NCBI GenBank assembly: GCA_018433585.1
Contig: JAHDQW010000008.1
Location: 1-64,000, forward strand
Direction of reading: 5' to 3'
Length of the DNA stretch: 64,000 nt
Source: Candidatus Praeruminimicrobium purgamenti
Lineage (GTDB): Bacteria; Elusimicrobiota; Endomicrobiia; Endomicrobiales; Endomicrobiaceae
In this document: positions 1,865-20,039 of the stretch, piece after piece
How positions within the stretch are numbered: position 1 is the first letter of the stretch
How the letters are laid out: every line of letters starts with the position of its first letter
The notes under the pieces: generated by a model
Told to the model about the DNA's origin: nothing
What the model saw: only the letters and a program-made list of their open reading frames with translations
Databases searched by the model: none
Program-made: the position numbers and the translations under genes

Positions 1865-4800
1865 TTATAAATTGATGCAGTGTGATTTTTGTAATTTTTC
1901 ATAATCGTCAAAAGCTTTCAAATAAGCCATAACTTTTTCTATGTTTGTTAAAATAGAACAGCCGCATTTGATAGCCGTTTTTCTTATTTCGGCATTGTCT
2001 TTTCTGTCGGTTAAATCAAAATTTTTATGTATATTGATAACAAAATCTACTTTACCGTCTTTTATAATATCAACGGCTCTTGGAGAATCGTTCCAATGAA
2101 CGCAGTTAACGTTATATCCTTTTTCTTTCAAGTATCTTGCCGTTCCTGTTGTAGCATAGATAGGAACGTTTAACTTGTAGAGACTGTCAACAACTTCCAT
2201 AAATTTTAATTTATCTCTTTCTCTTCCGGAACTTAGCAAAATACCTTTCTTCGGTTTCTTTATCTGCGTTGCTTCCATTGATAAAAGCATAGCCTGATTA
2301 AAATTGCTGCCGAGGCATCCGACTTCGCCGGTAGACCCCATCTCAACTCCTGTTACCGGATCTGCGCCGTCAAGCCTTTGATAACTGAACATTGAAGCTT
2401 TTATGCCGACAAAAGGAATCTCGCTTTCATCTATGACAATTTTTTTAATTTTTTCTTTATTCATAACTTTGCAGGATATTTCGGCAAGGTTCTTTCCGGA
2501 TACTTTTGAAATAAAAGGAAAGGATCTTGAAGCTCTTGAGTTACATTCTATTACTTTTACGTCATTATCTTTTGCAATAAACTGAATATTAAAAGGACCG
2601 TTAAGATTAAGACCTTTTGCTATTTTTCTTACAATATCTTTTATAGAATTTACCGTTTTAACATAAAGCTTTTCAGGCGGAAATACCAAAGTCGCATCTC
2701 CGCTGTGAACGCCGGCATTTTCGACATGTTCGCTTACAAGAGATATTATAACTTCTCCGTCCTTTGCAACGCCGTCGCATTCGACTTCTTTTGCGTCAAG
2801 TATAAACTTTGATATAACCACAGGATAGTCATCGGAAATATCTTTAGTAAGCGATAAAAAATAATCAAGACTGCTGTCATCGCTTGCAACGTTCATAAGA
2901 GTCCCTGATAAAACAAAGCTTGGTCTTATCAAAACAGGAAAACCTACTCTCTTAATAAATTCATCTATCTCTTTCCTTGAAGTAGCCGATATCCATTCAG
3001 GCTGGTCTATTTCAAGTTTATCAAGAAGCGTTGAGAATTTATTTCTGTCTTCGGCCATATCAACCGTTTTTGCGCTGTGTCCCAAAATTTTAACTTTAGC
3101 TTCATTTAAAGGCTGTATTAAATTATTAGGGTTTTGTCCGCCCATTGAAGCTATCACGCCTTTAGGTTTTTCAATATCAACTATATCAAGAACTCTTTCA
3201 AAAGATAATTCTTCAAAATACAGCCTGTTAGATGTCGAGAAATCAGTTGATACGGTTTCAGGATTACAGTTTATAATAACACTGTCAGATCTTTTGCCTT
3301 TAAAATATTTGCTGGTCATAACCGAACACCAGTCAAATTCAAGACTGCTGCCTATACGGTAGCTTCCGCTTCCGAGAGTTATAATGCTTGAATTTTTCTT
3401 TGTAAGAGCAATATCATTATGCTGACCGTCATAAGACAGATAAAGATAATTTGAACCGGTAGGGTATTCCGCCGAAGTAGTGTCTATTTGTTTTACAACA
3501 GGAACAACATTCAATTTTTTTCTTAATTTTCTTACCTGTAAAGATAATGTTTTAATTTGTTTCTGCGTATATTTAACGTTCGGATCTTTTACGCTTAAGA
3601 AAAATTTTACCAGCTGGTAGTCTGAGAATCCCAAAGATTTTAATTTTCTCAAATACCCTTTATCAAGAGTCTTAAACGCTTCGTATATATCTTTCTTTTT
3701 TGTTTTTGCAAGTATTTCGGTAACTTCATTTTCAGTATTTGCGAGAGTCTGAACATGAGTTAGAAACCATTTTGAAATGCTTGATAATTCGGCAATTCTT
3801 TCAAGAGTGTACCCTCTCTTAAAAGCTTCGTATATTGCAAACAGACGCAAATTTGTAGGATTTTCAATTTCATATTCCAAAGCTTCTTTTGAAGCGTCTT
3901 TGAAAACGCCGGCAGTAATTCCTTCCTCGTTTTCATTAACCATTCTTATGGCTTTCTGCGTTATTTCGCAGAAGTTTCTTCCGATTGCCATAACCTCGCC
4001 GACAGATTTCATCTGGGTTCCGAGAAGTTTCGAAACTCCCGTAAATTTTGTCAGATCCCATCTAGGAACCTTTAACGTTACATAATCCAAAGACGGTTCA
4101 AAAAATGCCGAAGTAGTCGTTGTTACGGGATTTTTAAGTTCAAGCAAATCAAAACCAGACACGACTTTAGCCGCTATATAAGCTATAGGATATCCGGTGG
4201 CTTTTGAAGCAAGCGCAGACGATCTTGAAAGTCTGGCATTTATCTCAATGACATAAAATTCATATTTAAAAGGACTCAGCGCAAACTGCACATTACATTC
4301 TCCGACAACTCCTATGCTGTGAACTATTTTTATCGCCGTATCTCTGAGCATATTATTTTCAATATTGTCAATTGTCTGACATGGGGCTATAACAATTGAA
4401 TCACCCGTATGTATTCCCATAGGATCAAAATTTTCCATATTACAGATAGTTATACAATTGCCCTGCCTGTCTCTCATTACTTCGTATTCTATTTCTTTCC
4501 AGCCGTGCAGTGATTTTTCTATCAATATCTGCGGAACAGACATAAGCGCAGCGGAAGCAAGATTTTTTAAAGTTTCGGCATTCTTAGCCAAGCCGCTTCC
4601 CAAACCGCCTAATGCAAAAGCGGATCTTGTTATGACCGGATATCCGATTTCTTCGGCGACTTTTAAAGCGTCTTCTACAGTGGAAACCGCTTTACTTTGA
4701 GGTATAGGCACTTCTATTTCCTGCATTCTCTTTGCAAATAAGTCTCTGTTTTCAGAAACTTCCAAAGCTTCTACCTGTGTCCCTAAAACTTCGACTCCGT

Positions 4801-5152
4801 ATTTTTTTAAGACGCCTGACTTTTCAAGTTCTATAACGCAGTTTAAAGCGGTCTGTCCTCCGAAACTTGAAATTATTCCGACTGGACGTTCCTGTTCTAT
4901 AATTTTTTCAACCCAAAAAGGCGTTACGGGATACAAAAAAACTTTCTTATCAATTTCGCTGTTTGTTTGAACAGACGCAATATTAGGGTTAACGACAAGG
5001 ACTTCAAGCCCTTCTTCCTGCAATGCTTTGACTGCCTGGGAACCCGAATAATCAAATTCACCGGCCTGTCCTATAGCCAAAGCTCCTGACCCCAATAATA
5101 TTACTTTTTGTTTTTTATTCCCTTTAGGATTTAAAAATTTTAGTATCGGCAT
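1865..5152 (-). CDS. carB: Carbamoyl-phosphate synthase large subunit
   Basis: 1095 residues, the normal length. The enzyme makes carbamoyl phosphate from bicarbonate, 2 ATP and ammonia supplied by CarA, feeding pyrimidine and arginine synthesis. Two ATP-grasp halves are visible: the first opens with LLGSGALAIGQAGEFDYSGSQ and has IEINARLSRSSALASKATGYP; the second opens near residue 615 (LGSGSYRIGSSLEFDWC) and has VIECNSRASRSFPFISK. The C-terminal MGS-like allosteric domain (ILLSSGRERDK onward, about 130 residues) is present, so it should be able to respond to effectors. A GAGGGA ribosome site sits 5 bases before the ATG. It is separated from carA by 182 bases holding a strong hairpin, so the subunits may not be made in strictly equal amounts. 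No pyrB or argF is present in the window. Confidence 0.98.
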   Translation of the reverse strand: MPILKFLNPKGNKKQKVILLGSGALAIGQAGEFDYSGSQAVKALQEEGLEVLVVNPNIASVQTNSEIDKKVFLYPVTPFWVEKIIEQERPVGIISSFGGQTALNCVIELEKSGVLKKYGVEVLGTQVEALEVSENRDLFAKRMQEIEVPIPQSKAVSTVEDALKVAEEIGYPVITRSAFALGGLGSGLAKNAETLKNLASAALMSVPQILIEKSLHGWKEIEYEVMRDRQGNCITICNMENFDPMGIHTGDSIVIAPCQTIDNIENNMLRDTAIKIVHSIGVVGECNVQFALSPFKYEFYVIEINARLSRSSALASKATGYPIAYIAAKVVSGFDLLELKNPVTTTTSAFFEPSLDYVTLKVPRWDLTKFTGVSKLLGTQMKSVGEVMAIGRNFCEITQKAIRMVNENEEGITAGVFKDASKEALEYEIENPTNLRLFAIYEAFKRGYTLERIAELSSISKWFLTHVQTLANTENEVTEILAKTKKKDIYEAFKTLDKGYLRKLKSLGFSDYQLVKFFLSVKDPNVKYTQKQIKTLSLQVRKLRKKLNVVPVVKQIDTTSAEYPTGSNYLYLSYDGQHNDIALTKKNSSIITLGSGSYRIGSSLEFDWCSVMTSKYFKGKRSDSVIINCNPETVSTDFSTSNRLYFEELSFERVLDIVDIEKPKGVIASMGGQNPNNLIQPLNEAKVKILGHSAKTVDMAEDRNKFSTLLDKLEIDQPEWISATSRKEIDEFIKRVGFPVLIRPSFVLSGTLMNVASDDSSLDYFLSLTKDISDDYPVVISKFILDAKEVECDGVAKDGEVIISLVSEHVENAGVHSGDATLVFPPEKLYVKTVNSIKDIVRKIAKGLNLNGPFNIQFIAKDNDVKVIECNSRASRSFPFISKVSGKNLAEISCKVMNKEKIKKIVIDESEIPFVGIKASMFSYQRLDGADPVTGVEMGSTGEVGCLGSNFNQAMLLSMEATQIKKPKKGILLSSGRERDKLKFMEVVDSLYKLNVPIYATTGTARYLKEKGYNVNCVHWNDSPRAVDIIKDGKVDFVINIHKNFDLTDRKDNAEIRKTAIKCGCSILTNIEKVMAYLKAFDDYEKLQKSHCINL

Positions 5153-5334: not shown

Positions 5335-6474
5335 CTAAAGAGTTTTGATAAACTGGTCTAAAATCCATCCTGTATCATTAGGGCCGCTTGAAGCTTCAGG
5401 ATGAAACTGAACAGACATAAACGGCTTCGTTTTGTGCTTAATGCCTTCAACGCCCTTGTCGTTGGCATTTTCAAACCATAAATCCCAATCCGGCATAATA
5501 GTCTCAGAGTCAACCGTATAGCTGTGATTTTGGCTTGTCATAAACGCTTTGTGCCCCGGAATTGCAAACACCGGCTGGTTATGGCTTCTGTGTCCGTAAG
5601 GCATTTTCTTAATTTTAGCTCCGGAAGCAAGGGAAATAATTTGATGTCCCAAACATATACCCAAGACAGGTTTATTATCTTTCAGCAAATCCGAAACTCT
5701 CTCTACCAAATCACCTGTATTTCTAGGGTCTCCGGGACCGTTGCTGATAAGCCATCCGTCAGCCTTAACTTTTGAAAAGTCGCTGTCCCAAGGAACAAGC
5801 TCTATGCTGCATCCTTTGGCTACTAACATTCTCAAAATATTCCATTTAACGCCGCAGTCCACAACGGCGACTTTCTTTTTTCCTGTTCCGTAAATACAAT
5901 TTGTTTTTGTAGACACCGTAGGCATTAAATTAAACTTTGAAGGGTCTACATATTCTTCTTTCTTAAAATTTTCAACAAACGGAAATTTTTTAATTGTATT
6001 TTCTTTCTTACATCCTTCAGGGATTATCCAGCCGAAAAGATTCCTGCTGTTTCTGATAGTTTGAACCAAATATCTGGTATCAACGCCTATTATCCCCGGA
6101 ACCTGCTGGCTTATCATCCACTCTTCAAGAGATACTCCGTTGTTGTGATGATAACATTCATCAAAAATTTCCGAAGCGATAATTCCCTGTGTCTTTATGG
6201 ATGAACTTTCATGTCCGTAAGACATAAAAAAATCCCCACCGTTTAAGGTAGGGACGCCATAATTACCTATAAGACAAAAACTGAATACCAGAATTTGTCC
6301 GACATATGACGGATCGGACATAGATTCACTGTAACCCAGCATGCCCGTATTAAAAACCATCTCGCCGCTGACTGCAACATCCGAACCTATTAATTTCCCT
6401 TCAAACTTCATCCCGTTGGAAAGTTCCAATGTGGCTTTTTTTCTTGTTTGTTTTTTAGTCATTGTTTTATCCAT
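5335..6474 (-). CDS. carA: Carbamoyl-phosphate synthase small (glutaminase) subunit
   Basis: 379 residues. It hydrolyses glutamine and channels ammonia to CarB. The N-terminal half is the CarA-specific domain (LELSNGMKFEGKLIG, then FNTGMLGYSE). The C-terminal class I amidotransferase has the nucleophile elbow VLGICLGHQI and the catalytic His-Glu in VQFHPEAS, so the triad is complete; the GYGHRSHNQPV-type loop is also present as PYGHRSHNQPV. The start ATG at 6474 shares one base with the stop of the ANTAR gene (TAATG), which points to translational coupling; a second in-frame ATG four codons later could also serve. It is the only clear glutamine-consuming enzyme downstream of the ANTAR regulator in this operon, which fits nitrogen-linked control. 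Confidence 0.97.
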   Translation of the reverse strand: MDKTMTKKQTRKKATLELSNGMKFEGKLIGSDVAVSGEMVFNTGMLGYSESMSDPSYVGQILVFSFCLIGNYGVPTLNGGDFFMSYGHESSSIKTQGIIASEIFDECYHHNNGVSLEEWMISQQVPGIIGVDTRYLVQTIRNSRNLFGWIIPEGCKKENTIKKFPFVENFKKEEYVDPSKFNLMPTVSTKTNCIYGTGKKKVAVVDCGVKWNILRMLVAKGCSIELVPWDSDFSKVKADGWLISNGPGDPRNTGDLVERVSDLLKDNKPVLGICLGHQIISLASGAKIKKMPYGHRSHNQPVFAIPGHKAFMTSQNHSYTVDSETIMPDWDLWFENANDKGVEGIKHKTKPFMSVQFHPEASSGPNDTGWILDQFIKTL

Positions 6475-7067
6475 TATTTCTCGTCTATAAAATCAAACAT
6501 CTTTATTATGGTTTTTGCTATATCGTTTATTGTTCTGCCCGAATCCATAGCTTTTTTTTGCAGATTTCTGTATGCCTGAGCCTCATCAAGCTTAAATTTT
6601 TTCATCAGGATTCCTCTGGCTCTGTCAACATTTTTTCTTTCTTCAATCTGCTGCTCAAGGCTCAGAACTTTCTTTTCCATATCGTAAAATCTATGAGAAA
6701 GTCTGACGGCAAGCTCTGTCGTATGCAGCAAAACCTGATTATTTATCGGTTTCGTAATGCAAAATATATCTATAGAGGTCTTTTTTAATTCATTAATAAA
6801 ATCGCTTTGCGCAATATTAGTCAATATAATAGTAGGACAAATTCTAAGCTCTTCTATTTTACTTGCAAGAGTAAAACCGTTCATATCAAGCAGGGAATAA
6901 TCCGCAATAACGGCGGCAGGCATCATAACAGACACTTTTCTCAAAGCGTCATTGCCTGAATTTGACACATATACGACGGAAAAAATATTTACGGACGACG
7001 ATAAAATAGATTTTATTTCATTTGCCAACGCATCTGAACAAACCAATAATATTTTATAATTGTCCAT
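6474..7067 (-). CDS. ANTAR-domain response regulator (RNA-binding antiterminator)
   Basis: 197 residues. The N-terminal ~120 residues look like a receiver domain: a likely phospho-acceptor Asp in AVIADYSLLDMNG, Thr in TIILTNI and Lys in CITKPI. The usual acidic pair near the N terminus is reduced (LLVCSDALA). A short helical linker (MEKKVLSLEQQIEER) leads to an ANTAR domain of about 55 residues, RARGILMKKFKLDEAQAYRNL then AMDSGRTINDIAKTI, the family hallmark. ANTAR proteins bind paired small RNA hairpins with six-base loops (A at 1, G at 4) and stop terminators from forming. Two leaders of this kind occur in the window, at 9656-9700 and 19939-19990, both before glutamate synthase genes, so they are likely its targets. 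No partner sensor kinase is seen here. Confidence 0.93.
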   Translation of the reverse strand: MDNYKILLVCSDALANEIKSILSSSVNIFSVVYVSNSGNDALRKVSVMMPAAVIADYSLLDMNGFTLASKIEELRICPTIILTNIAQSDFINELKKTSIDIFCITKPINNQVLLHTTELAVRLSHRFYDMEKKVLSLEQQIEERKNVDRARGILMKKFKLDEAQAYRNLQKKAMDSGRTINDIAKTIIKMFDFIDEK

Positions 7068-7124: not shown

Positions 7125-7865
7125 TTAATACTTTGTATACATGTTGTTATACGGATTTTTATTTACCGTCATATACTTTGAAAATTTATTTATGTCTATA
7201 TTGCCTGTATATTTAAAATATTGCTTGTATTGCTTAACATATTTTGCAAGTACTTCCAAATCTTCCTGTTCCATAGCAACTTTTGTTATTTCTTTTCCGA
7301 GCTTATGCTGAGGAACTACTCCGTTAATATACATTCTTCCGCCGTGCATTCCTGTTCCGCAGTATTTTCCGGTTAATTCTTCATCTTTTGCAAGACCAAG
7401 CCCCATAACTATTATTATTCCTCCGGCCATATATTCGCCCAAGAAATCTCCGGCTCCGCCGCCGATAACTATGGCAGGTTTCATATCCAAATACTCTTTC
7501 ATATGTATTCCGACTCTGTATCCGACGCTGTCTTTTATAAAAATTTCTCCGCCTCTCATTGCATATCCTGCAGTATCTCCGCAGCTTCCGTGGACGATTA
7601 TTCTTCCTTTGTTCATCGTATTGCCAATCGCATCCTGAGCGTTTGAGAGAACTTCTATTTCAGGCCCGTCCATATAAGCGGCCAAATCATTTCCCGGAAC
7701 TCCGTCAATAATGATTTTCACTTTCCCGCTGACGCCGCAGCCTATATATCTCTGCCCGAAAACATTTTTCAGCGTTATGGTATCGTACGCAGACGCTTTT
7801 TCTTTTATTTCTCTGTTTAATTCCCTAGCTTCTCTTAAATTTACTTCTATATTTACGTTAGCCAT
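7125..7865 (-). CDS. Glutamate synthase GXGXG-domain subunit (split GltB C-terminal part)
   Basis: 246 residues made almost wholly of the right-handed beta-helix (GXGXG) that ends bacterial GltB and also occurs in FwdC/FmdC. Typical repeats are visible: GQRYIGCGVSGKVKIIIDG, GNTMNKGRIIVHGSCGDTAGYAMRGGEIFIKD, GYRVGIHMKE, and VIGGGAGDFLGEYMAGGIIIVMG. In archaeal-type glutamate synthases this domain is a separate polypeptide that holds the glutaminase and FMN parts together. Its start overlaps the end of the FAD oxidoreductase gene by 8 bases, so the pair is translationally linked. The glutaminase and FMN subunits it should assemble with are at 17315-19908, on the far side of the autotransporter gene. 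Confidence 0.92.
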   Translation of the reverse strand: MANVNIEVNLREARELNREIKEKASAYDTITLKNVFGQRYIGCGVSGKVKIIIDGVPGNDLAAYMDGPEIEVLSNAQDAIGNTMNKGRIIVHGSCGDTAGYAMRGGEIFIKDSVGYRVGIHMKEYLDMKPAIVIGGGAGDFLGEYMAGGIIIVMGLGLAKDEELTGKYCGTGMHGGRMYINGVVPQHKLGKEITKVAMEQEDLEVLAKYVKQYKQYFKYTGNIDINKFSKYMTVNKNPYNNMYTKY

Positions 7866-9114
7866 TTTTACCTCTGAACATTTTATTATATCTTATATCC
7901 TGCGAAAATACGTTTAAACCTATGTCTCTTTTTGTAATATCGTAATTCAAATCTTTCAGGGATATTCTATCATTTATTATAGATGTATAGATACCGGCTC
8001 TGTAAGGAAGGTTTAACAAAGCAAAACCGACAAGTTTATCGTCTTTTATTATAAGTTTTTTAAACGTTATTTTTGTTTCGTCATATTCTACATATTCGGC
8101 ATATCCCTGTTCTTTAGGATCGATTATACCGGCTGAAATTAACTGAATGCCGAAAAAGCCTATGGCGTTCATTGCAAAAGAACCGTTAAAAGGCGTTTTT
8201 TCACCTGCCATATTTAAACCCGCCGTTTCGCCCTGAATAAAAGCATTAGGCCACAAAGCAAGAATTTTATTTTGCTGCGACAAAACATCAAGAGACTCAA
8301 CGCAGTCTCCGGCAGCATAAACATCTTTGGCGGAAGTCATCATATATTTATCGGTTACTATACCTCTGTTTATTTTAATTTTAGCATTTTGCGCTACGGC
8401 AACGTTAGGTCTTACGCCGACCGCCATTATAAGAACATCACAGACAAGTTTTGTCCCGTCTGACAACAGAACGCTGTCTGAAGAAACTTCCGAAACCGTA
8501 ACCGATAATTTAAAATTAATATCGTGTTCCTCTATATGTTTCTGCATTATGGAAGCCGTTTTTTTATCAAGAACGGAAGCCATGAGCCTGTCGGCAAGAT
8601 CTATTACGGAAATCTGTCCGACTTTACCGGCAAGAGCTTCGGCGGCTTTTAATCCGATCAATCCTGCCCCGACTATAACAACTTTTGATTTCTTCGTTAT
8701 AACTTTCTCTATTTTCTGAGCATCTTCGAGCTTTAAAAAAGTGAAAACATTTTTATGTTTTTCTATTCCTTTTACCGGCGGAACAAAAGGTATGCTCCCC
8801 GTGGCAATTAAAAGTTTATCATATTTATAAGTTTTTTTATTTGAACATTTCACTTCTTTCTTTTTTGTATCTATCTGCTGAGCCTGACAGTTCAAAACTA
8901 CGTTAATTTTTTTATTTTTATAAAATTCCGCCGGCTTATACTTCATTAATTCAATATCATATTTGCCCGCAAGGTAATATGAAATCAACGGTCTGCCGTA
9001 AGCTTCGAAAGATTCCTCTGAAAGAATAGTAATCTTTCCAGTCTTATCTATACTTCTGATCTTATCTGCGCAATTTATTCCTGCCGCGCTGTTACCGATT
9101 ATTAAATATTCCAT
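7858..9114 (-). CDS. FAD/NAD(P)-dependent oxidoreductase, likely glutamate synthase electron-input subunit
   Basis: 418 residues of the pyridine-nucleotide-disulfide oxidoreductase type, similar in layout to rubredoxin reductase and the NirB N-terminal part. The FAD fold opens with IIGNSAAGINCADKI; the NAD(P) fold is VVIVGAGLIGLKAAEAL near residue 150; the second FAD contact is DVYAAGDCVE near residue 270. There is no redox-active CxxC, so it is not a disulfide reductase. Its position directly after a polyferredoxin (stop and start adjacent, no gap) and before the GXGXG subunit matches split glutamate synthase operons of clostridia and thermophiles, where it passes electrons from NAD(P)H to the Fe-S chain. 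The exact donor cannot be read from the sequence. Confidence 0.85.
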   Translation of the reverse strand: MEYLIIGNSAAGINCADKIRSIDKTGKITILSEESFEAYGRPLISYYLAGKYDIELMKYKPAEFYKNKKINVVLNCQAQQIDTKKKEVKCSNKKTYKYDKLLIATGSIPFVPPVKGIEKHKNVFTFLKLEDAQKIEKVITKKSKVVIVGAGLIGLKAAEALAGKVGQISVIDLADRLMASVLDKKTASIMQKHIEEHDINFKLSVTVSEVSSDSVLLSDGTKLVCDVLIMAVGVRPNVAVAQNAKIKINRGIVTDKYMMTSAKDVYAAGDCVESLDVLSQQNKILALWPNAFIQGETAGLNMAGEKTPFNGSFAMNAIGFFGIQLISAGIIDPKEQGYAEYVEYDETKITFKKLIIKDDKLVGFALLNLPYRAGIYTSIINDRISLKDLNYDITKRDIGLNVFSQDIRYNKMFRGKNG

Positions 9115-9570
9115 TTATTTTACCTCTTCTTCGTCCATAAGTTTAAGAGCGTTATTAGGACAATTTTGTACGCATGCCGGATTTCCTCCGGTCTCTATAC
9201 ACAAATCGCATTTGGAAACGATCTTTTTTTCGGTACTTTTTTTAACAGCGCCGAAAGGACAAACTAAAACGCATGACAGACATCCCACGCATTTTTCTTT
9301 TATATTTCTTACAATACCGGTTTCATCTTTATACATAGCTCCGGATATGCAGGCTTTTACGCATTTCGGATCACTGCAGTGTCTGCACTGTAATGCAAAG
9401 TAGGTTTTGGTTTTAGGCGAAAGTATTTCTTCAACCACAATGGCTGATTGTATATTCTCTTTTTTGTAAGTCTTGATTATATCTTTTGATTTTGAATGTG
9501 CCGTTTTGCAATATACTTCGCACAATCCGCATCCCAAACAATTCTTTTCAAACGCGTATACTTTTTTCAT
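9115..9570 (-). CDS. Polyferredoxin (four [4Fe-4S] sites), glutamate synthase electron carrier
   Basis: 151 residues with four Cys clusters of the HycB/DmsB type: CLGCGLCEVYC near the N terminus, CRHCSDPKCVKAC in the middle, CVGCLSCVLVCP, and CDLCIETGGNPACVQNCP. They should bind four [4Fe-4S] clusters. There are no membrane segments or signal peptide, so it is cytoplasmic. It is the first gene of a minus-strand operon with a consensus promoter and an antitermination-type leader, and it is directly followed by the FAD oxidoreductase, which supports a role in bringing electrons to the glutamate synthase. AGAGG lies 6 bases before the ATG. A role with another oxidoreductase is possible but less supported. 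Confidence 0.88.
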   Translation of the reverse strand: MKKVYAFEKNCLGCGLCEVYCKTAHSKSKDIIKTYKKENIQSAIVVEEILSPKTKTYFALQCRHCSDPKCVKACISGAMYKDETGIVRNIKEKCVGCLSCVLVCPFGAVKKSTEKKIVSKCDLCIETGGNPACVQNCPNNALKLMDEEEVK

Positions 9571-9655
9571 TTTTACCTCTTTTCTATTACTGTACAGGTT
9601 TTCAATATCCGCCCTGCCAAACTTCTTGTTTTAATTCTTTTTATCTAACAAAAGT

Positions 9656-9690
9656 AGTCCAAAGGATCCGTTTGCCAAACCCTTTGGACT
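9656..9690 (-). terminator. Leader terminator of the polyferredoxin operon
   Basis: On the minus strand two perfectly paired 10-base arms, AGTCCAAAGG (9690-9681) and CCTTTGGACT (9665-9656), enclose a 15-base loop and are followed by ACTTTTG. It lies in the 5' leader, about 85 bases before the polyferredoxin ATG, so it would stop transcription before the genes unless prevented. Its 5' arm shares six bases with the 3' side of the ANTAR-type hairpin at 9685-9700, so the two structures cannot form together. The T-run is short, so termination may be partial. Confidence 0.75.
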
Positions 9691-9700
9691 GCTTTGTCCA
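9685..9700 (-). promoter_or_regulatory. ANTAR-type hairpin in leader of the polyferredoxin operon
   Basis: Minus-strand TGGAC-AAAGCA-GTCCA: a 5-bp stem with a six-base loop having A at position 1 and G at position 4, the signature of ANTAR protein binding sites. Its 3' arm is part of the following terminator stem, giving the expected either/or switch. A canonical site has two such hairpins; the one expected upstream is not clear. At 9700-9715 there is an all-AT hairpin with a six-base loop, but the loop (GTATTA) lacks the A1/G4 pattern. The candidate binder is encoded four genes downstream at 6474-7067. Confidence 0.7.
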
Positions 9701-9736
9701 TTATTAATACATAATCGTTATAAGTAAAGTTTTAAA

Positions 9737-9765
9737 ATTATAAACAAAATTGCTGCTGTTGTCAA
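9737..9765 (-). promoter_or_regulatory. Consensus sigma-70 promoter of the polyferredoxin-FAD-GXGXG operon
   Basis: Minus strand: TTGACA (9765-9760), a 17-base spacer, TATAAT (9742-9737), a full match to consensus. Transcription should start near 9730, giving a leader of about 160 bases. Such a strong promoter with a leader terminator suggests that control is mostly by antitermination rather than by initiation. The rest of the 306-base gap (9571-9876) holds the autotransporter's own upstream region; a plus-strand TTGTAA (9784-9789) and TAATAT (9807-9812), 17 apart, is a weak candidate promoter for it. Confidence 0.85.
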
Positions 9766-9876: not shown

Positions 9877-12800
9877 ATGCGAAGATTTTTTAACAAGCTT
9901 GTAAAAATTTTATTTGGCGTTGCTCTTATGACACTAATGTCATTCCACACGGGTTTTGCGGCAATCAGCGGCAGCAATGATTCTGAAAACTACACATACT
10001 CATCCGATGATTCAGGCGATGCAATGTATACAAACACCATGACAAGCACAGGATACAGCGGCGTCGTTTTAAACCCCTCAACAGCAGCCTCTTTAACTGT
10101 TCGTGGAACAGGAACATACCCTACTATAAGCGATTGGATGAACAATGGCAGCCTTAATCTTTCCTCCTCAGGTTCGGCAATATACGTCGAAAATATTTTT
10201 GTAAATAATCTTTCAAGTCTGCAGGCAAGCTCTTTAAACATAAACGCTTCCTCGGTATTTGTAAACAGTTCTTCTTTGAATTTTGATACGATAACAAATA
10301 ATGGAAATTTTCTTACGAATGCAAGCAGTATTGCAGCAACATCCGGAATAGTGAGTAACGGGAGTTTAGTGTTTTACGGCGGAACAAACAACACCGATGT
10401 GACAGGAACCGGCAGTTTCCAAGTGGCAACAAGCGATTTTACCAATAATGCAAATATAACCCAAAATTCTATTTTTTTCAATAGCGGCTTAAATATAGTT
10501 AATACTACAGGGAGCAAGATAACATCAACGTACTTCACCATAGCAAACGGATCAACATTTATAACAGATCTGGACGATATCGATATATATACGGCAGGTG
10601 AAGATTTATTAAATCACGGCCTTTTACAAACTTCCGCAGACGGTACAAACTATAATAATATCAAGGGAATAGGTAATTTAAATATTGGGTTTGGAAATAC
10701 GGTATACAATGATTCTACGGCAACAATATCTCAAAGCACTATAACAGTTGCAGGAGTATTAATAAATAATAACAATACGGCGGATGCAATAAAAGCAACA
10801 AACGGATTTGTCGTGCAATCTAATGCGACATTGCAAAGCAATGCATCGGCATTGGCAGGAAATATTACAAATAACGGCGGATGGGTAGTTTTTACAGGCG
10901 GGACAAACGACAATGACGTTACCGGCACCGGATGGCTGAGAGCAACAAACACAATGACAAATAACGGTGATATCAGCCAGGCAAGAGTTTATATAGACAG
11001 CGGAACAGTTACAAATAACGGCGTAATCACGGCAGATGACATATATGTAGATTCGGATGCGATATTATTAACAAATAATTTGCTTGACACAACTGCCGGC
11101 AGCGGAGGGATACATAATAACGGTACGCTGGAGGTAAATATTGACAGTACTACAACAATAAACAGCGCAAATATTATAGACGGCGGAGGCGGTTTGGAAA
11201 TATTGGGAAACACCGTTTTCAACCAACAGGCCGACAAAACGATTACTCAACGTTCGATATTGATTTCTTCTAATGCCTCATTGACTGCAAATGCCGACGA
11301 TTTGATTGTGTCGGATAAAATATATAATGAGGGAAGTTTGACTTTTCAAGGTTCATCCGTCAATAATAATAATGAAGTAACCGGAACGGGAGACTTATTT
11401 ATAAACGGATCAATACGCAATTTTAAAAATATCAGCCAATCCAATCTGACATTATATAATTCTACGAGTTTATTAAATGTTGAAGGTTCAACTGTAACAC
11501 TTACAGATAATCTTTCAATCGGCTCATCTGCAGGTTTGCAAAATAACGGTATATTAAATGTAGTAGACGGCGTAAACAACGGTTCAATAACCTATGGTTC
11601 AACATCACAAGGTATTATCAACATATCCGGAAATTTCATCAATAACGGCAATATGGCACAGGAAGAATTATACATATCCAGCGGCGCTTCAGTAATAACA
11701 AATGCTTCCAATTCAAATATACACAAAATCATATCAAACAACGGCGACTTTATATTTACAGGCGGAGTAAGTGATGATAATATAACAGGAACCGGAACTT
11801 TGACATACAACGGGGCAGAAAGCAATTTAACAAATTATGCCGATATAACTCAGTCTGCCGTTAATATAACAAGCGGAACTTTCTCCAACCATACAGGCGG
11901 CTTAATAACCGCAACTGCCATAGATATAGCAAGCAACGGCACTTTACAGACAGATATTGATGACATAGATACTTACACAAACGGCGGCGCCGTAACCAAT
12001 GCGGGATTATTACAGATAAATGCCGACGGCACAAACCTAAACAGCATACAAGGTACCGGAAATATTGAGATTGCATCCGGTTATAATGTAACAAACAGTT
12101 CTTCAATAGCACAAAATATATTCTCAAACAACGGAAACTTTACAAATGATGCCTCAGGTACAGTACAGGTAAGTTCTTTCACAAACAGCGGAACAGTATT
12201 AAATCAAAATATTATAAATGCAGAATACTTTGCAAACAGACCCGCATCAACTATTCTTAATAACGGGGAAATTAATATTAACGGCGGTATAAATGAAGGC
12301 ACAATAGACAGAACAGGCGGAGTAGGCGTCGGAACAATGACCGTTACTGCAGGCACATTTTATAATACAGGATACATTGAACAATACTCTTTAATAATTA
12401 AAGACGGCGGTCATTTAGTCACAAATGCAGGCGTGCTTCTTCTTGATACTGGATACATTATAAACGATTCTTTATTGACATTCACAGGCGGAATTCTAGG
12501 CCAAAATGTTTACGGTTCCGGAACTCTAGCCGTCGAAGGAGATGTTTCCAACAATAGTCTTATACAACAAAGCGCGTTAAATGTTGTCAGCGGTACAAGC
12601 GGAGATTTCAACATATTAACCAACAGTTCATCAACAATCGTTAATGATGTTTTTGTAGGACGGTATGCCGGCATAAATAACGACACCGAACTCATTACAG
12701 GATCACTGACAAACGAAGGCGCCATAGTAAATACATCCACATCAAGTTTTACTGTAGGCAACGGTTTAAATACAGGTTCAATATCAGGAACAGGAAACAT

Positions 12801-15800
12801 CAATATATCCGGAGGATTTGACAATACCAACGGAACATTGGCACAAACAAACATTAACATATCTACTACATCGGCTTCTTTGGTAAGCAACGCAAGCGGG
12901 TTAAACGGAAACATCAATAATGCCGGGACATTAACCTTAACAGGCGGAACAAACAGCAATATAATAACAGCTTACAACGGAACTTTTGGAAATTTAATAA
13001 TAGACAGTTCTACAGTAACAAACACAGCGTCTGTAGAGCAAGAAAATATTACTGTAACTGACAGCGGCACTTTTGCAAATCAAGAAGATATTACGGTTAG
13101 AAATTTACTTAAAAACAGCGGAACTGTCATGAATAACAGCTTAATAACAGCCGATCAACTTACAAATGACCTGAACGCAACAATAACAAATGACGGAACA
13201 TTGACATTAAATAACGGCGGTTCAAATCAGGGCGTTATAAACGGGTCAGCAGGTATTTTAAATACATACGGAAGTTTTACAAACAACGGAGACATCAGCC
13301 AAAGCTCGGTTACCGTTCATACAGGAACATTTAATAACGCATCAGGAAGCTCGATAACGGCAGCATACTTGGGAACGGCTTCGGGAACAATCTTGACAAC
13401 CGATATAGACGACATATCCGCAACTATAGGAAATGACGGATTGCTGCAAATTAATGCCGACGGGACCAACAACAACAATATATTGGGCGGCGGAAGATTA
13501 GAAATACTTGAAAGCAACAATGTAACAAATTCCGCAATAATAACTCAAAGCACCGTAACGGTAAGAGGAGCTCTTACAAACGAAAATTTTATAACTGCAG
13601 CCAACGGGTTCACTGTTGCCGAAACAGGAACTATGTCAACAAATGCTTCAAATATCTCAGGGAATATTGAAAATACAGGATTTATAAATTTTACAGGCGG
13701 AACTAATAACAGTACAGTAACAGGCAACGGAATACTAAACACAACAGGAACTTTTGTAAACAATGCCGGAATAACACAAAACTTAGTAAACGTTACAAGC
13801 GGTTCATTTATAAACAATTCGGGACAGCTCATAACAGCAAACGTTCTTAATATCAGTTCAAACGCAGCAATGACGACTGACATTGATAATATTAAAGCAA
13901 ATACCGCAAACGACGGTTCATTAACAATAAATGCCGAAGGGACAAATTCAAACAATATAAGCGGAAACGGAACTCTGTCCGTGGCAACAGGATCACACGG
14001 CTATGTATATAACAGCGCAAGTTCTTCCATAAGCCAAAACAGAATAATTCTAAGCAGCAGCGCATTAGTAAACAACAACAAGAATACAGATTCTATAAAC
14101 GCTTCCGGAGGTTTTCTTGTCGATTCGCAAAGCCTTTTACAGGCTGACGCCTCATCATTGGCTGGAGATATAGAAAGTTACGGTCTTATTGGTTTTACGG
14201 GAGGAATAAATGATAATATTATAACCGGAACCGGAATTTTATACATTTTAGGCAATACAGAAAACACCTCTTCAATTACGCAGGCGGATATATATATAAA
14301 CAACGGAACAAATTTTAAAACCGACGCTTCAAACTTAGCAATTTCGAATTATATAAACAATTACGGAACTTTGCTTTTAACGGATGCAGCCGACACTGTT
14401 CTTGAAGAATCCGTAACAGGAATAGGAAACATAATAAAAACCGGAACCGGAACTATTGTTATGACAGGCAATAATTCTTATGACGGAACAACAACAATAA
14501 CCGAAGGCGCTTTGCAAATAGGCGCAGCAGGCAATATAGGAACAAATAATATTATGTTCGACGGCGGAAAACTTATAACGAGTACAAATACGGTTATTGC
14601 TCTTAACAACAGGTTTATAGGAACAGAAAGCAATGATGTCTCTATTGACGTTTTGGCAGGAGAGCTTCAACTTTCAACAACCGCAGTAATAGCTCAGGCT
14701 TCTACGGGAAATACAAGCTTAATAAAAAGCGGAGCCGGAACTTTGACTCTTCTGATGGATTCAAATTATTATAACGGCGACACATATGTGTCAAGCGGCA
14801 CATTGGCAGGAACAACCGCTAATATTAACGGAACTCTTTACGGAACAGGCGTCTCCAACCTAGACACTTTTGATTTTACCGACACACAAACAAGCACAAC
14901 AGCGGCACATGTCGTACTTAACGAAATAGACGATACAAATTATATCGGAACTTTCAATAAAACCGGTTCGGCTTTAATGGATGTAACTAATTACTTCCGC
15001 TCATATCAGGCAAATATCAGCAGCGGATCACTCTATGTGAACAATATTGCGTCAGGAACAAATTTTATAGTCGACAGCACTATGACTTTCACAAACAGTC
15101 TGTTTGGAGGCAATTCAAACATAACGGCAGATGAAGTTGTAATAGGAACCGGAGCAACAGCAGCCCCTGGAAATTCAATAGGGACAACAAATATAACCGG
15201 CGATGAAACTTTTGCCGCAGGTTCAACATATCAAGTTGAATTTGAACAGACAAGCATGCAAAACGGCGGAGCAAACAACGATACTACAAATGTTTCGGGA
15301 ACTGTAACAATAGACAATACCGACACTTCTTTAGATTTAATAAATCTGAACGGAAAATTTTATGTTCATGAAGTCTTGGACATCATAACAGCCGGAACAT
15401 TGAACGGAGAATTCACAACACCTACTCTAACGGGATATGATGTAGATACGGCAGATTTAAGACTCGGCAGCAGAATAGATTATACAGTATATAACGACGG
15501 TAATACTATGAAACTTGCAGTAAACAGAATTGCTTCGGATTACGCAAATTCTCCGGAACTCACCGACATGTCTCATAATGAAAAAGAAGTTGCAAAATCC
15601 ATAGATGCGATTTCAACCGGATACGGAGGAGATATTACGAATGCTCTTGATGCTTTGGAAAAATACTATTATTATACAAGCACATACGATTTAAACGCAT
15701 TAAAAGCAGGATTTAACGATATAGCGGGCGTAATATATGCAAATTCAACATTAATGTCATACTTTAATGCAAAAACGAAACATGTTTATGACAGAATCCA

Positions 15801-17314: not shown

Positions 17315-18820
17315 TTATTCTCCGGCATGCTTAATGCCGAGTATTTCCAATTCTTTTTTATTTAATCCTACGCCTCTTAACATCAATCTGTTGCCTCTTA
17401 AACTGTCTATTGCGTTAATACCCATTCCACCCAGCATTTCTTTTATTTCATGGTCCCATGCGTTAAGAAGATTTACAAGCCTTTGGTAAGCTATATCAGG
17501 ATTAAGCCTTTTTACCAAATCAGGGTCCTGAGTCGCTATTCCCCAGTTGCATTTTCCGGTAGAACACGAATGGCACATATGGCATCCGATAGCTATTAAA
17601 GCTGCGCTTGCTATATAAACGGCATCGGCGCCTAAAGCTATGGCTTTTACTATATCCGCGCTGTTTCTTATCGAACCTGCACAGATGATTGATATTGAAT
17701 TTCTTATTCCCTCGTCTCTTAATCTCTGATCAACGGAAGCCAAAGCAAGTTCTATAGGAATTCCGACATTGTCTCTTACTCTTGTTGGAGCTGCACCTGT
17801 TCCGCCTCTGAAACCGTCTATAACTATTGCATCAGCTCCGGCTCTTGCTATACCCGAAGCGATTGCTGAAACGTTGTGAACGGCAGCTATTTTTACAAAT
17901 ACAGGCTTCTGGTAATTTGTTGCTTCTTTTAATGAGAATATAAGCTGTCTTAAATCTTCTATTGAATAAATATCGTGGTGAGGAGCAGGAGAAATAGCAT
18001 CCGATCCGACAGGAATCATTCTTGTAGCAGAAACATCTTCTCCGACTTTTATTCCCGGCAAATGTCCGCCGATACCTGGTTTTGCTCCCTGCCCTATTTT
18101 AATTTCTACGGCAACTCCGGCATTTAAATATCCGACATGCACGCCGAATCTTCCCGAGGCTACCTGTACTATCGTATTTTTACCGTATTTATAAAAATCT
18201 TTATGAAGGCCGCCTTCTCCAGTGTTGTACAATATGCCAAGATTTTCTGCGGCTCTTGCAAGAGATTCATGAGCGTTTTTGGAAATAGATCCGTAACTCA
18301 TTGCCGAAAACATTATAGGCATATTTAATTCTATTTGCGGAGGCATTTCCGTAACAAGTTTGCCGTCTTTATCATATTCAAGTTTTTCAGGTTTTCTTCC
18401 GATCATCACTTTTGTTTCCATCGGTTCTCTTAAAGGATCGATTGAAGGATTCGTAACCTGGCTTGCATTCAAAAGCATTTTATCCCAGTATATAGGAAAA
18501 TTCTTAGGATTCCCCATACTTGATAAAAGCATTCCGCCTGTTTCCGCCTGTCTGTAAATTTCGTCTATCGCCTGTCCGCTCCAGTTGGCGTTTTCTCTGA
18601 ATTCCAAAGAATTCTTTCTTATCTTAAGCGCTTTTGTAGGGCACAAGACAACGCATCTGTGACAGTTAACGCATTTTGCGTCATTTGCTCTTACGACATT
18701 ATCTTCTTCATCATAAGAATGAACTTCGTTTGCGCATTGCTTTACGCATACTTTGCACTGTATGCATTTATTTTCATCTCTTAAAACTTCAAATTGTGGA
18801 GAGATTAAACTTGAACTCAT
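17315..18820 (-). CDS. Glutamate synthase FMN/Fe-S catalytic subunit (archaeal-type)
   Basis: 501 residues. Residues about 15-70 carry two [4Fe-4S] motifs (CIQCKVCVKQCANE and CVNCHRCVVLCPTKA). The rest is the FMN-binding TIM barrel that forms glutamate from 2-oxoglutarate and ammonia: MFSAMSYGSISKNAHESLARAA, NTGEGG, GQGAKPGIGGHLPG, DAIVIDGFRGGTGAAPT, and the phosphate site ICAGSIRNSADIVKA followed by GADAVYIASAAL. The C-x5-C-type cluster Cys residues near CHMCHSCSTGKC are also present. This is the central GltB domain as a separate polypeptide, as in archaea and Thermotoga. Its start overlaps the glutaminase stop by 4 bases (ATGA), so both are made together. The GXGXG and electron-input subunits are at 7125-9570. 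Confidence 0.95.
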   Translation of the reverse strand: MSSSLISPQFEVLRDENKCIQCKVCVKQCANEVHSYDEEDNVVRANDAKCVNCHRCVVLCPTKALKIRKNSLEFRENANWSGQAIDEIYRQAETGGMLLSSMGNPKNFPIYWDKMLLNASQVTNPSIDPLREPMETKVMIGRKPEKLEYDKDGKLVTEMPPQIELNMPIMFSAMSYGSISKNAHESLARAAENLGILYNTGEGGLHKDFYKYGKNTIVQVASGRFGVHVGYLNAGVAVEIKIGQGAKPGIGGHLPGIKVGEDVSATRMIPVGSDAISPAPHHDIYSIEDLRQLIFSLKEATNYQKPVFVKIAAVHNVSAIASGIARAGADAIVIDGFRGGTGAAPTRVRDNVGIPIELALASVDQRLRDEGIRNSISIICAGSIRNSADIVKAIALGADAVYIASAALIAIGCHMCHSCSTGKCNWGIATQDPDLVKRLNPDIAYQRLVNLLNAWDHEIKEMLGGMGINAIDSLRGNRLMLRGVGLNKKELEILGIKHAGE

Positions 18821-19908
18821 TTTTTTACCTCCAGCTTAACGATGACAGGTTCTCCGCCTTTAGGATGACGAATATTTTCCGGATCTTTGCAAATCACTCT
18901 GATAGCGCTCTCTTCGCTGGCAAAATATACTTTGCTGCCTTTTTCGGCGGTTACCATAGATCTCAATTTTATTCTGTCGTTAAGTGCAATCAACCCGTCT
19001 TCATAACCTATTAAAATAGAGAAAGGTCCGTTTATTAAAGCGCTTGAATATACCGTTCTTAAAGCTTTCAATTCCGCCGCTTTTTTAGGGTTTTCTCTTT
19101 CTATGTCTTTCCAGAAAGGAGCAACAAGCACCTGTATTGCTTTTTCTATAGGAAGCTTATGTTTCCTTACAAGCAAATCCAGAAGATACGTAATTACTTC
19201 AGTATCTGTCTGAAGAGAACAATTATATCCGTACATTTCAACAAATCTTCTGTTTGCGTCATAAGAAGAAATTTCGCCGTTGTGAACTATAGACCAGTCA
19301 AGCATTGTGAAAGGATGAGCTCCGCCCCACCACCCCGGAGTGTTCGTAGGAAATCTTCCGTGAGCTGTCCATATATATCCTTCATAGTTTTCCAGCATAA
19401 AAAATTCGCCGATATCTTCAGGATATCCTACGCCTTTAAAAGCTCCCATATTTTTACCGCTTGAAAAAACGTAAGCTCCGTCAAATTCTTTATTGACTCT
19501 TATAACGCATCTTGCCGTAAATTCTTCCTCGTCCATATTAAGGTCTCTGACCTTATATATTCTAGGCTGTACAAAATATCTCCAGATTAGAGGTTTATCT
19601 TTAATGCTTGCAACTTTTCTTGTAGGAATATTGCCAGCGCTTTCAATTTCAAAATGTTCGTTAAGAAATTCTTCTGTTTTGGCTTTTACAGTATTATTTT
19701 CATAAAAAATATGCAGTGCGAAAAAATCTTTATATTGAGGATAAATACCGTATCCGGCAAAACCTCCGCCCAATCCGTTAGACCTCTCATGCATAAGAGC
19801 GATCGATTTAACGATATCTTCACCGTTAAATCTGTTGCCTTTTTTATCTATAATACCGCTTATGGCGCATCCTGCCGGTATTTTTATTTCGCCTTCTTTT
19901 TTAAGCAT
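18817..19908 (-). CDS. Glutamate synthase glutaminase subunit (class II amidotransferase)
   Basis: 363 residues from the ATG at 19908, chosen because AGGAGG lies 6 bases upstream; a longer in-frame ATG at 19983 falls inside the leader hairpins and is unlikely to be used. The Ntn nucleophile is probably Cys14 (PAGCAISGIIDKKG), implying removal of a short propeptide. Other class II amidotransferase marks are HGRFPTNTPGWWGGAHPF, IVHNGEISSYDANRRF and LQTDTEVITYLLD. It frees ammonia from glutamine for the adjacent FMN subunit. A consensus-like promoter and an antitermination-type leader precede it, so it is the first gene of a two-gene operon. In typical relatives the polyferredoxin, FAD and GXGXG genes would follow directly; here they lie beyond the autotransporter. 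Confidence 0.94.
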   Translation of the reverse strand: MLKKEGEIKIPAGCAISGIIDKKGNRFNGEDIVKSIALMHERSNGLGGGFAGYGIYPQYKDFFALHIFYENNTVKAKTEEFLNEHFEIESAGNIPTRKVASIKDKPLIWRYFVQPRIYKVRDLNMDEEEFTARCVIRVNKEFDGAYVFSSGKNMGAFKGVGYPEDIGEFFMLENYEGYIWTAHGRFPTNTPGWWGGAHPFTMLDWSIVHNGEISSYDANRRFVEMYGYNCSLQTDTEVITYLLDLLVRKHKLPIEKAIQVLVAPFWKDIERENPKKAAELKALRTVYSSALINGPFSILIGYEDGLIALNDRIKLRSMVTAEKGSKVYFASEESAIRVICKDPENIRHPKGGEPVIVKLEVKK

Positions 19909-19938: not shown

Positions 19939-19977
19939 AAAAAAAATACTCAAAAGATTTGTGATAAATCCTTTGAG
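19939..19977 (-). terminator. Leader terminator of the glutaminase-FMN subunit operon
   Basis: On the minus strand 12-base arms (19977-19966 and 19960-19949) pair with one G-U around a five-base loop and are followed by TATTTTTTTT, a classical intrinsic terminator. It sits about 40 bases before the ATG at 19908, so it would block expression by default. Its 5' arm begins with the 3' arm of the ANTAR-type hairpin at 19973-19990, so the structures exclude each other. Confidence 0.88.
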
Positions 19978-19990
19978 CACCATTGCTCAA
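19973..19990 (-). promoter_or_regulatory. ANTAR-type hairpin in leader of the glutaminase operon
   Basis: Minus-strand TTGAGC-AATGGT-GCTCAA: a perfect 6-bp stem with a six-base loop having A at position 1 and G at position 4. It overlaps the leader terminator by five bases, as at 9685-9700, although the stem sequences differ. No clear first hairpin is found between it and the likely transcription start near 20004. Stabilising this hairpin by an ANTAR protein would let transcription run into the glutaminase gene. Confidence 0.72.
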
Positions 19991-20010: not shown

Positions 20011-20039
20011 ATGCTAGCAGTTTTTATAGTTTTTGTCAA
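20011..20039 (-). promoter_or_regulatory. Promoter of the glutaminase-FMN subunit operon
   Basis: Minus strand: TTGACA (20039-20034), 17-base spacer, TAGCAT (20016-20011), preceded by TGC as an extended -10. Start expected near 20004, giving a ~95-base leader that contains the ANTAR-type hairpin and terminator. It is divergent from the tRNA promoter at 20068-20097. Confidence 0.75.

Follow-up and report, generated by a model that had tools for sequence, protein, structure and literature searches.

The DNA analysed here as a whole (64 kb; hereafter the window) carries on its minus strand the genes of a split glutamate synthase in two operons. Each operon is preceded by a leader with a predicted promoter, a hexaloop hairpin and a terminator that overlaps the hairpin; we refer to these as the 9656 and 19939 leaders. 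The features are as follows.

1865..5152, minus strand: carB, carbamoyl-phosphate synthase large chain (TIGR01369 above cut-off)
5335..6474, minus strand: carA, carbamoyl-phosphate synthase small chain, abutting the ANTAR gene (TIGR01368 above cut-off)
6474..7067, minus strand: receiver-ANTAR protein, the proposed regulator (PF03861, 2.5e-17)
7125..7865, minus strand: glutamate synthase GXGXG subunit, GltB3 (PF01493)
7858..9114, minus strand: pyridine nucleotide-disulphide oxidoreductase subunit (PF07992)
9115..9570, minus strand: 4Fe-4S polyferredoxin of the split glutamate synthase (Pfam Fer4 families)
9656..9690, minus strand: intrinsic terminator stem-loop of the 9656 leader
9685..9700, minus strand: hexaloop hairpin (P2-like) of the 9656 leader, proposed ANTAR binding site; A1/G4 loop, stem pairing supported across relatives
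9737..9765, minus strand: predicted sigma-70 promoter of the 9656 leader
17315..18820, minus strand: glutamate synthase FMN/central subunit, GltB2 (PF01645, 3e-141)
18817..19908, minus strand: glutamate synthase GATase subunit, GltB1 (PF00310)
19945..19981, minus strand: terminator of the 19939 leader, followed by a T-run (terminator scan)
19973..19990, minus strand: hexaloop hairpin of the 19939 leader, TTGAGC-AATGGT-GCTCAA (hairpin scan)
20011..20039, minus strand: predicted promoter of the 19939 leader, TTGACA-17-TAGCAT (sequence match)

The start of GltB1 was set at 19908, after the leader; the mechanical start of its reading frame is 19983. Between gltB2 and the ferredoxin gene lies a plus-strand gene for an OmpA/PATR outer-membrane protein of 2448 amino acids (9877-17223). 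In genus g7 the genes form one contiguous unit, glnA-gltB1-gltB2-ferredoxin-reductase-gltB3-ANTAR-carA-carB, with a single leader before glnA, whereas in the window's genome a unit of this type lies in three pieces, each with its own leader, and glnA is on another contig. A promoter-like site, TTGAAA-16-TATAAT, stands directly before the ANTAR gene (7114-7087), and the gene may therefore have some expression of its own.

Anatomy and conservation of the leaders

A preliminary description of this DNA had read three elements in the 9656 leader: a full-consensus promoter, a TGGAC-AAAGCA-GTCCA hairpin with A1 and G4 in its loop, and a terminator of two perfect 10-base arms overlapping the hairpin by six bases. 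All three are in place. The promoter, TTGACA-17-TATAAT, matches the consensus at 12 of 12 positions (TTGACA at 9765-9760, TATAAT at 9742-9737), and transcription is predicted to start about 30 nt before the hexaloop hairpin, which occupies 9700-9685 and folds alone with -6.4 kcal/mol. The terminator, AGTCCAAAGG..CCTTTGGACT, spans 9690-9656 with 15 pairs including G-U, and shares the six nucleotides 9690-9685 with the hairpin. The T-run that follows it (9655-9646) is weak, ACTTTTGTTA, a point that the preliminary description passed over; the matching site in a sister genome (L093, an Endomicrobiaceae MAG, JAQVBD010000005.1) reads ACTTTTTTTAG. This sister genome keeps the ferredoxin leader, with the same promoter, hairpin and terminator, in surrounding sequence that has diverged. 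The fold of the 9656 leader has a z-score of -5.9, and none of 200 shuffles folded equally well. A search with the 4227 covariance models of Rfam, at gathering and relaxed thresholds, returned tRNA only and no known riboswitch or leader family.

We then asked how often such an arrangement arises by chance. Scanning the window for A1/G4 hexaloop hairpins that overlap a terminator of at least 10 pairs returned exactly two cases, the 9656 and 19939 leaders. No such overlap was found in 60 dinucleotide shuffles of the window, and none in the window itself under any of the 15 alternative letter choices at loop positions 1 and 4. The earlier judgement that the two leaders share one architecture despite different stem sequences, and that this is hard to get by chance, is thus borne out. 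A single covariance model detects both leaders, both being among its 18 input rows.

The two mutually exclusive structures are also supported by pairing across relatives. Across the 18 aligned rows, 97% of the cells of the hexaloop stem are paired, 4 of its 5 pairs show changes on both sides, and the terminator covaries. As the 18 rows were chosen by a scanner that demands pairing, 45 held-out elements provide a fairer test. In these, P2 pairing reached 88%, against a mean of 75.5% and a maximum of 81.8% in 2000 shuffles, P2 being absent from the model used; the closing C-G pair was present in all 45 rows. Terminator covariation was seen in the larger set as well, in an alignment fitted to the terminator. 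A1 and G4 occur in 63 of the 63 leaders compared, these letters being partly built into the search, and the loop is narrowed to AAAGRN. The leaders therefore contain what is expected of a P2 element, namely an A1/G4 hexaloop hairpin, its stem 3 or more pairs long, that overlaps an intrinsic terminator, and also the minimal ANTAR binding motif, one AxxGxx hexaloop on a short stem (PMC8934654).

A nitrogen regulon and its proposed regulator

The preliminary description had proposed a genome-wide search for hexaloops with overlapping terminators, and had assigned both halves of the enzyme to one RNA-binding regulator. For this search, 18 Endomicrobiaceae leaders, the two window leaders included, were used to build a covariance model. 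At E <= 0.012 it found five leaders in the genome of 1.86 Mb, the next match, with reverse-strand echoes set aside, having E = 5.2 (E-values of this model are rough). They precede gltB1-gltB2 (19939), ferredoxin-reductase-gltB3-ANTAR-carAB (9656), glnA, purF and porin-amtB-glnK (contig 17), and all five thus stand before nitrogen-linked operons. In relatives, leaders were found before the same genes, before the ANTAR gene itself and before second amtB-glnK pairs; dapF-like genes and a few that resemble transport or amidotransferase genes, identified by eye from their translations, also follow leaders.

Several other features of the relatives were recorded. Leaders at L107:5645-5706, L105:6275-6332 and 3778-3835, and L033:8623-8683 stand before genes that hint at a wider regulon there: by eye from translations, a putative urea-carboxylase-associated protein, two putative solute-binding lipoproteins and a dapF-like gene. 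Several relatives have tandem sets of two or three attenuators before amtB or glnA (L037:12590, 12693, 12810; L040:4303, 4391; L101:5886, 5976; L100:2369, 2448; L108:2956, 3042). Where the leader is of the porin-amtB type, the hexaloop stem has an A-C mismatch beside its closing pair (TGGAC-AAAGNA-GCCCA), with the terminator intact; the mismatch is conserved in two genera (L091:7930-7992, L092:7721-7782, L034:13658-13717 and 14938-14997, L035:13533-13601), and these leaders are possibly tuned, weaker antiterminators.

In a genome search, the protein encoded at 6474-7067, within the operon that starts at the 9656 leader, was the only ANTAR protein. Its gene went unmentioned in the preliminary description, as did the absence of a first hexaloop hairpin (P1) discussed below. 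The predicted structure has a mean pLDDT of 89.5, and its best full-length superposition is on RNA-bound EutV (6ww6; TM 0.78, rmsd 3.1). In EutV, G4 is touched by Arg142, Lys149, Glu160 and Tyr164 (PMC8934654). An ungapped alignment, in which chain numbering runs two ahead of the numbering of that paper, gives R144, R151, E162 and Y166 as their counterparts, R144, E162 and Y166 being invariant in 18 orthologues. Arg175 and Arg177 of EutV, which make backbone contacts, are not conserved in place. Thus, the protein has an ANTAR domain of the EutV type, with the G4-contacting Arg, Glu and Tyr and a coiled-coil dimer helix.

The receiver domain departs from that type. Across orthologues the phospho-acceptor D56 is nearly invariant and the Lys is mostly kept; the acidic pair of beta1 (residues 8-13) is lost in those covering that part. 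With the acidic pair gone and D56 kept, the domain is, judged by its sequence, a pseudo-receiver. A search of 37 genomes for kinases of the HisKA_2 type found none. The protein thus lacks the complete phosphorylation site of a EutV-type regulator, and with no HisKA_2 partner found in those genomes ordinary phosphorylation is doubtful, and the incomplete pocket leaves GlnK (P-II) or another protein partner as a possible input. In AmiR/AmiC an ANTAR regulator is controlled by a protein partner and not by a partner kinase (PDB 1qo0). The same is described for NasS-NasT (PMC3795266), and the case here, with no HisKA_2 kinase found, may be compared with both.

We next compared the distribution of leaders and ANTAR genes in 77 Endomicrobiaceae genomes (Elusimicrobiota), counting leaders at E <= 0.005. 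Leaders were present in 25 of 26 ANTAR-positive genomes and in 6 of 51 ANTAR-negative ones (Fisher p = 1.5e-13, uncorrected for phylogeny; the 51 are not independent cases, since most belong to one genus, g8). Of the six ANTAR-negative genomes, G099 has a weak match (E = 0.0033), and G034, G064, G066 and G097, which have leaders and in which no ANTAR gene was found, are represented by assemblies that are 79-91% complete. The sixth match, in G029, is a generic inverted repeat without hexaloop and was rejected as a leader. In G097, a g8 genome, the leader is kept before amtB (L201:3391-3460), and either the ANTAR gene is missing from the assembly or this leader is a relic. The g8 genomes are small and lack ANTAR and glnA genes; many keep gltB1, and no leader was present at any of the g8 gltB1 loci examined. 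On account of the small genomes without glnA, we take g8 to match the endosymbiotic Endomicrobiellum described in PMC11257099. It appears that such endosymbiont-like genomes have lost regulator and leaders jointly.

Together, the sole ANTAR protein, the relatedness of the leaders and their co-occurrence with the ANTAR gene across genomes make one regulator for both halves of the enzyme the best reading. That part of the earlier proposal stands, and the regulon is wider than the two operons it considered: the genome encodes an ANTAR protein and carries leaders before a set of functionally linked operons.

Leaders without a first hexaloop

Published ANTAR antiterminators are dual hexaloops; in Enterococcus faecalis, deletion of P1 abolished induction and an altered linker impaired it (PMC3369931). 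In the 2022 study of the EutV structure it was concluded that preventing termination requires contact with one hexaloop and then the other, and the same study redefined the minimal binding motif as one hexaloop and urged further work on single-hexaloop motifs (PMC8934654). At the 9656 and 19939 leaders, an upstream A1/G4 hexaloop is absent, and the canonical arrangement, with P1 a short linker upstream (Ramesh et al. 2012), is not found. The preliminary description had called the 9656 leader ANTAR-type. This fits its P2 hexaloop overlapping a terminator; it does not hold for the standard form, because the defining first hexaloop is missing here and family-wide. A switch with one hairpin contradicts the best-studied case, since deletion of P1 abolished induction in E. 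faecalis.

Another family also has one-hexaloop leaders: that in G043 precedes a gdhA-like gene and that in G053 a gltB1-like gene, both genes named by eye. In a genome from another class of the phylum (G055), such a leader lies beside a differently built ANTAR gene, before a gltB1-like gene, with about 2 nt between predicted start and hairpin. The ANTAR gene of G055, whose product has a GAF-like N-terminal part by eye, directly precedes the leader and the gltB1-like gene (L186:7060-7910). In the regions around ANTAR genes of other families and orders of the class, no leader was found beyond the one family of G043 and G053; the ANTAR proteins encoded there probably act on different targets or on an element that has diverged further.

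A first hairpin might be present in cryptic form, for example if the 30 nt preceding the hexaloop folded into a weak hairpin with a 7-nt loop, and the leader would then be a canonical dual-hexaloop target after all. No other leader with a strong promoter has so long a 5' segment as the 9656 leader, in which a mismatched stem around UAACGAU can be sketched by hand. The sketched hairpin is not kept in the sister leader, however, and in G055 the hexaloop begins only about 2 nt past the predicted start. In the 26 leaders with strong promoters, a median of 18 nt (range 12-30) separates the predicted start from the hexaloop hairpin, and no fold below -1 kcal/mol exists for 24 of these 26 segments. 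Upstream A1/G4 hexaloops occur in 2 of 56 leaders, fewer than the 4.4 in shuffles, and a search for first hairpins with relaxed stems gave no excess over shuffles. We therefore regard a cryptic P1 as unlikely. What does recur between start and hexaloop is a ACUUAAUAA-like motif (window 9701-9712, for example): CTTAAT is present in 12 of 56 leader 5' segments (1.1 in shuffles, at most 5), and TTAATA follows strong promoters in 8 of 27 leaders versus 0 of 30 other strong promoters.

Alternatively, the leaders could be plain attenuators or terminators free of ANTAR control, the small hairpin being a by-product of the terminator sequence. Any terminator arm can supply short alternative hairpins, and the terminators here are strong on their own. 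However, A1/G4 is the only rule giving overlaps in the window (2 versus 0), and in 502 kb, in regions partly chosen with the model, it gives 32 versus 2. As the held-out rows also support P2 pairing and the leader tracks the ANTAR gene across genomes, we consider this very unlikely. Equally improbable, in our view, is that the ANTAR protein binds the leaders with reversed sign or at another level, such as blocking translation, which is reported for mycobacterial ANTAR RNAs. ANTAR RNAs of Actinobacteria that overlap ribosome sites do act in translation (PMC8164766), and the Shine-Dalgarno sequence of the purF leader directly follows the terminator. In each of the remaining four leaders, however, at least about 28 nt separate the terminator region from the start codon, and what the hairpin excludes is the terminator, not a ribosome site.

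Proposed mechanism and relation to known systems

We conclude that the 9656 leader exists and belongs to a coherent regulon. Starting from the observed anatomy, conservation, covariation, regulon membership and co-occurrence with the ANTAR gene, we think it quite probable that it acts as a transcription attenuator under the control of the receiver-ANTAR protein of its own operon, with one hexaloop sufficing and all the leaders forming one nitrogen regulon. By default, transcription would begin from the strong promoter; with the hexaloop hairpin's 5' arm displaced, the 15-pair terminator would form and stop polymerase near 9650. An active ANTAR dimer would grip the emerging AAAGCA hexaloop, flipping out G4 as EutV does, and by holding the 3' half of the hairpin would keep the terminator from closing. 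Polymerase would then read through the ferredoxin, reductase and gltB3 genes, the regulator's own gene and, in all likelihood, carAB. The same protein would open the four further leaders, before gltB1-gltB2, glnA, purF and porin-amtB-glnK, giving one nitrogen-assimilation regulon with positive autoregulation, and the single hexaloop would suffice, with no P1 hairpin for recruitment. Binding of the ANTAR protein to the leader is what its conserved G4 contacts suggest; antitermination as the sign of control is modelled on EutV and NitR, and the inducing condition would presumably be nitrogen shortage.

More tentatively, at a probability that we would put somewhat short of even, ANTAR antitermination may require no more than one hexaloop, and the case may extend to a central nitrogen-assimilation regulon of Elusimicrobiota built on P1-less attenuators, in which the ACUUAAUAA-like segment or a short start replaces P1 and the pseudo-receiver is switched by a protein or metabolite, not by phosphorylation.

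The closest known system is that of EutV/EutW and the eutP-type leaders of E. faecalis (PMC3369931, PMC8934654), which likewise combines a receiver-ANTAR protein, with conserved G4-contacting residues, and an AxxGxx hexaloop with a conserved closing pair whose hairpin overlaps the 5' arm of the terminator. The present system differs in that P1 is absent, the loop is AAAGRN, no HisKA_2 kinase was found in the 37 genomes, the acidic pocket of the receiver is lost, and the targets serve nitrogen assimilation and not ethanolamine use. NitR of Clostridium saccharobutylicum is reported as an ANTAR antiterminator that induces glutamine synthetase and glutamate synthase genes on nitrogen limitation (cited in PMC6316151). 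Compared by the genes regulated, the likeness lies in ANTAR control of GS/GOGAT genes; the phylum is different, and the regulon here adds purF, amtB-glnK and, by operon, carAB. In Desulfotomaculum reducens and D. acetoxidans, too, glutamate synthase genes have putative ANTAR RNAs before them (PMC3369931). Those genomes resemble ours in having several ANTAR elements before nitrogen genes including glutamate synthase, but their elements were detected by a dual-hairpin model, which the leaders described here would not satisfy.

ANTAR control as a kind is thus not new, since ANTAR control of glutamate synthase is known (NitR; Ramesh 2012). What is new is the P1-less architecture, family-wide and in a second class of the phylum. 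Among open-licence papers, to which our search was confined so that an earlier report is possible, nothing relevant was found on ANTAR control in Endomicrobia or Elusimicrobia, and the main genome analysis of Endomicrobiaceae does not discuss regulation (PMC11257099). The family-wide one-hexaloop leaders provide a natural test of the rule that both hexaloops are needed (PMC8934654). For the Endomicrobiaceae themselves, they outline a concrete nitrogen regulon, together with a case in which a regulator and its leaders were apparently lost together in endosymbiont-like genomes.
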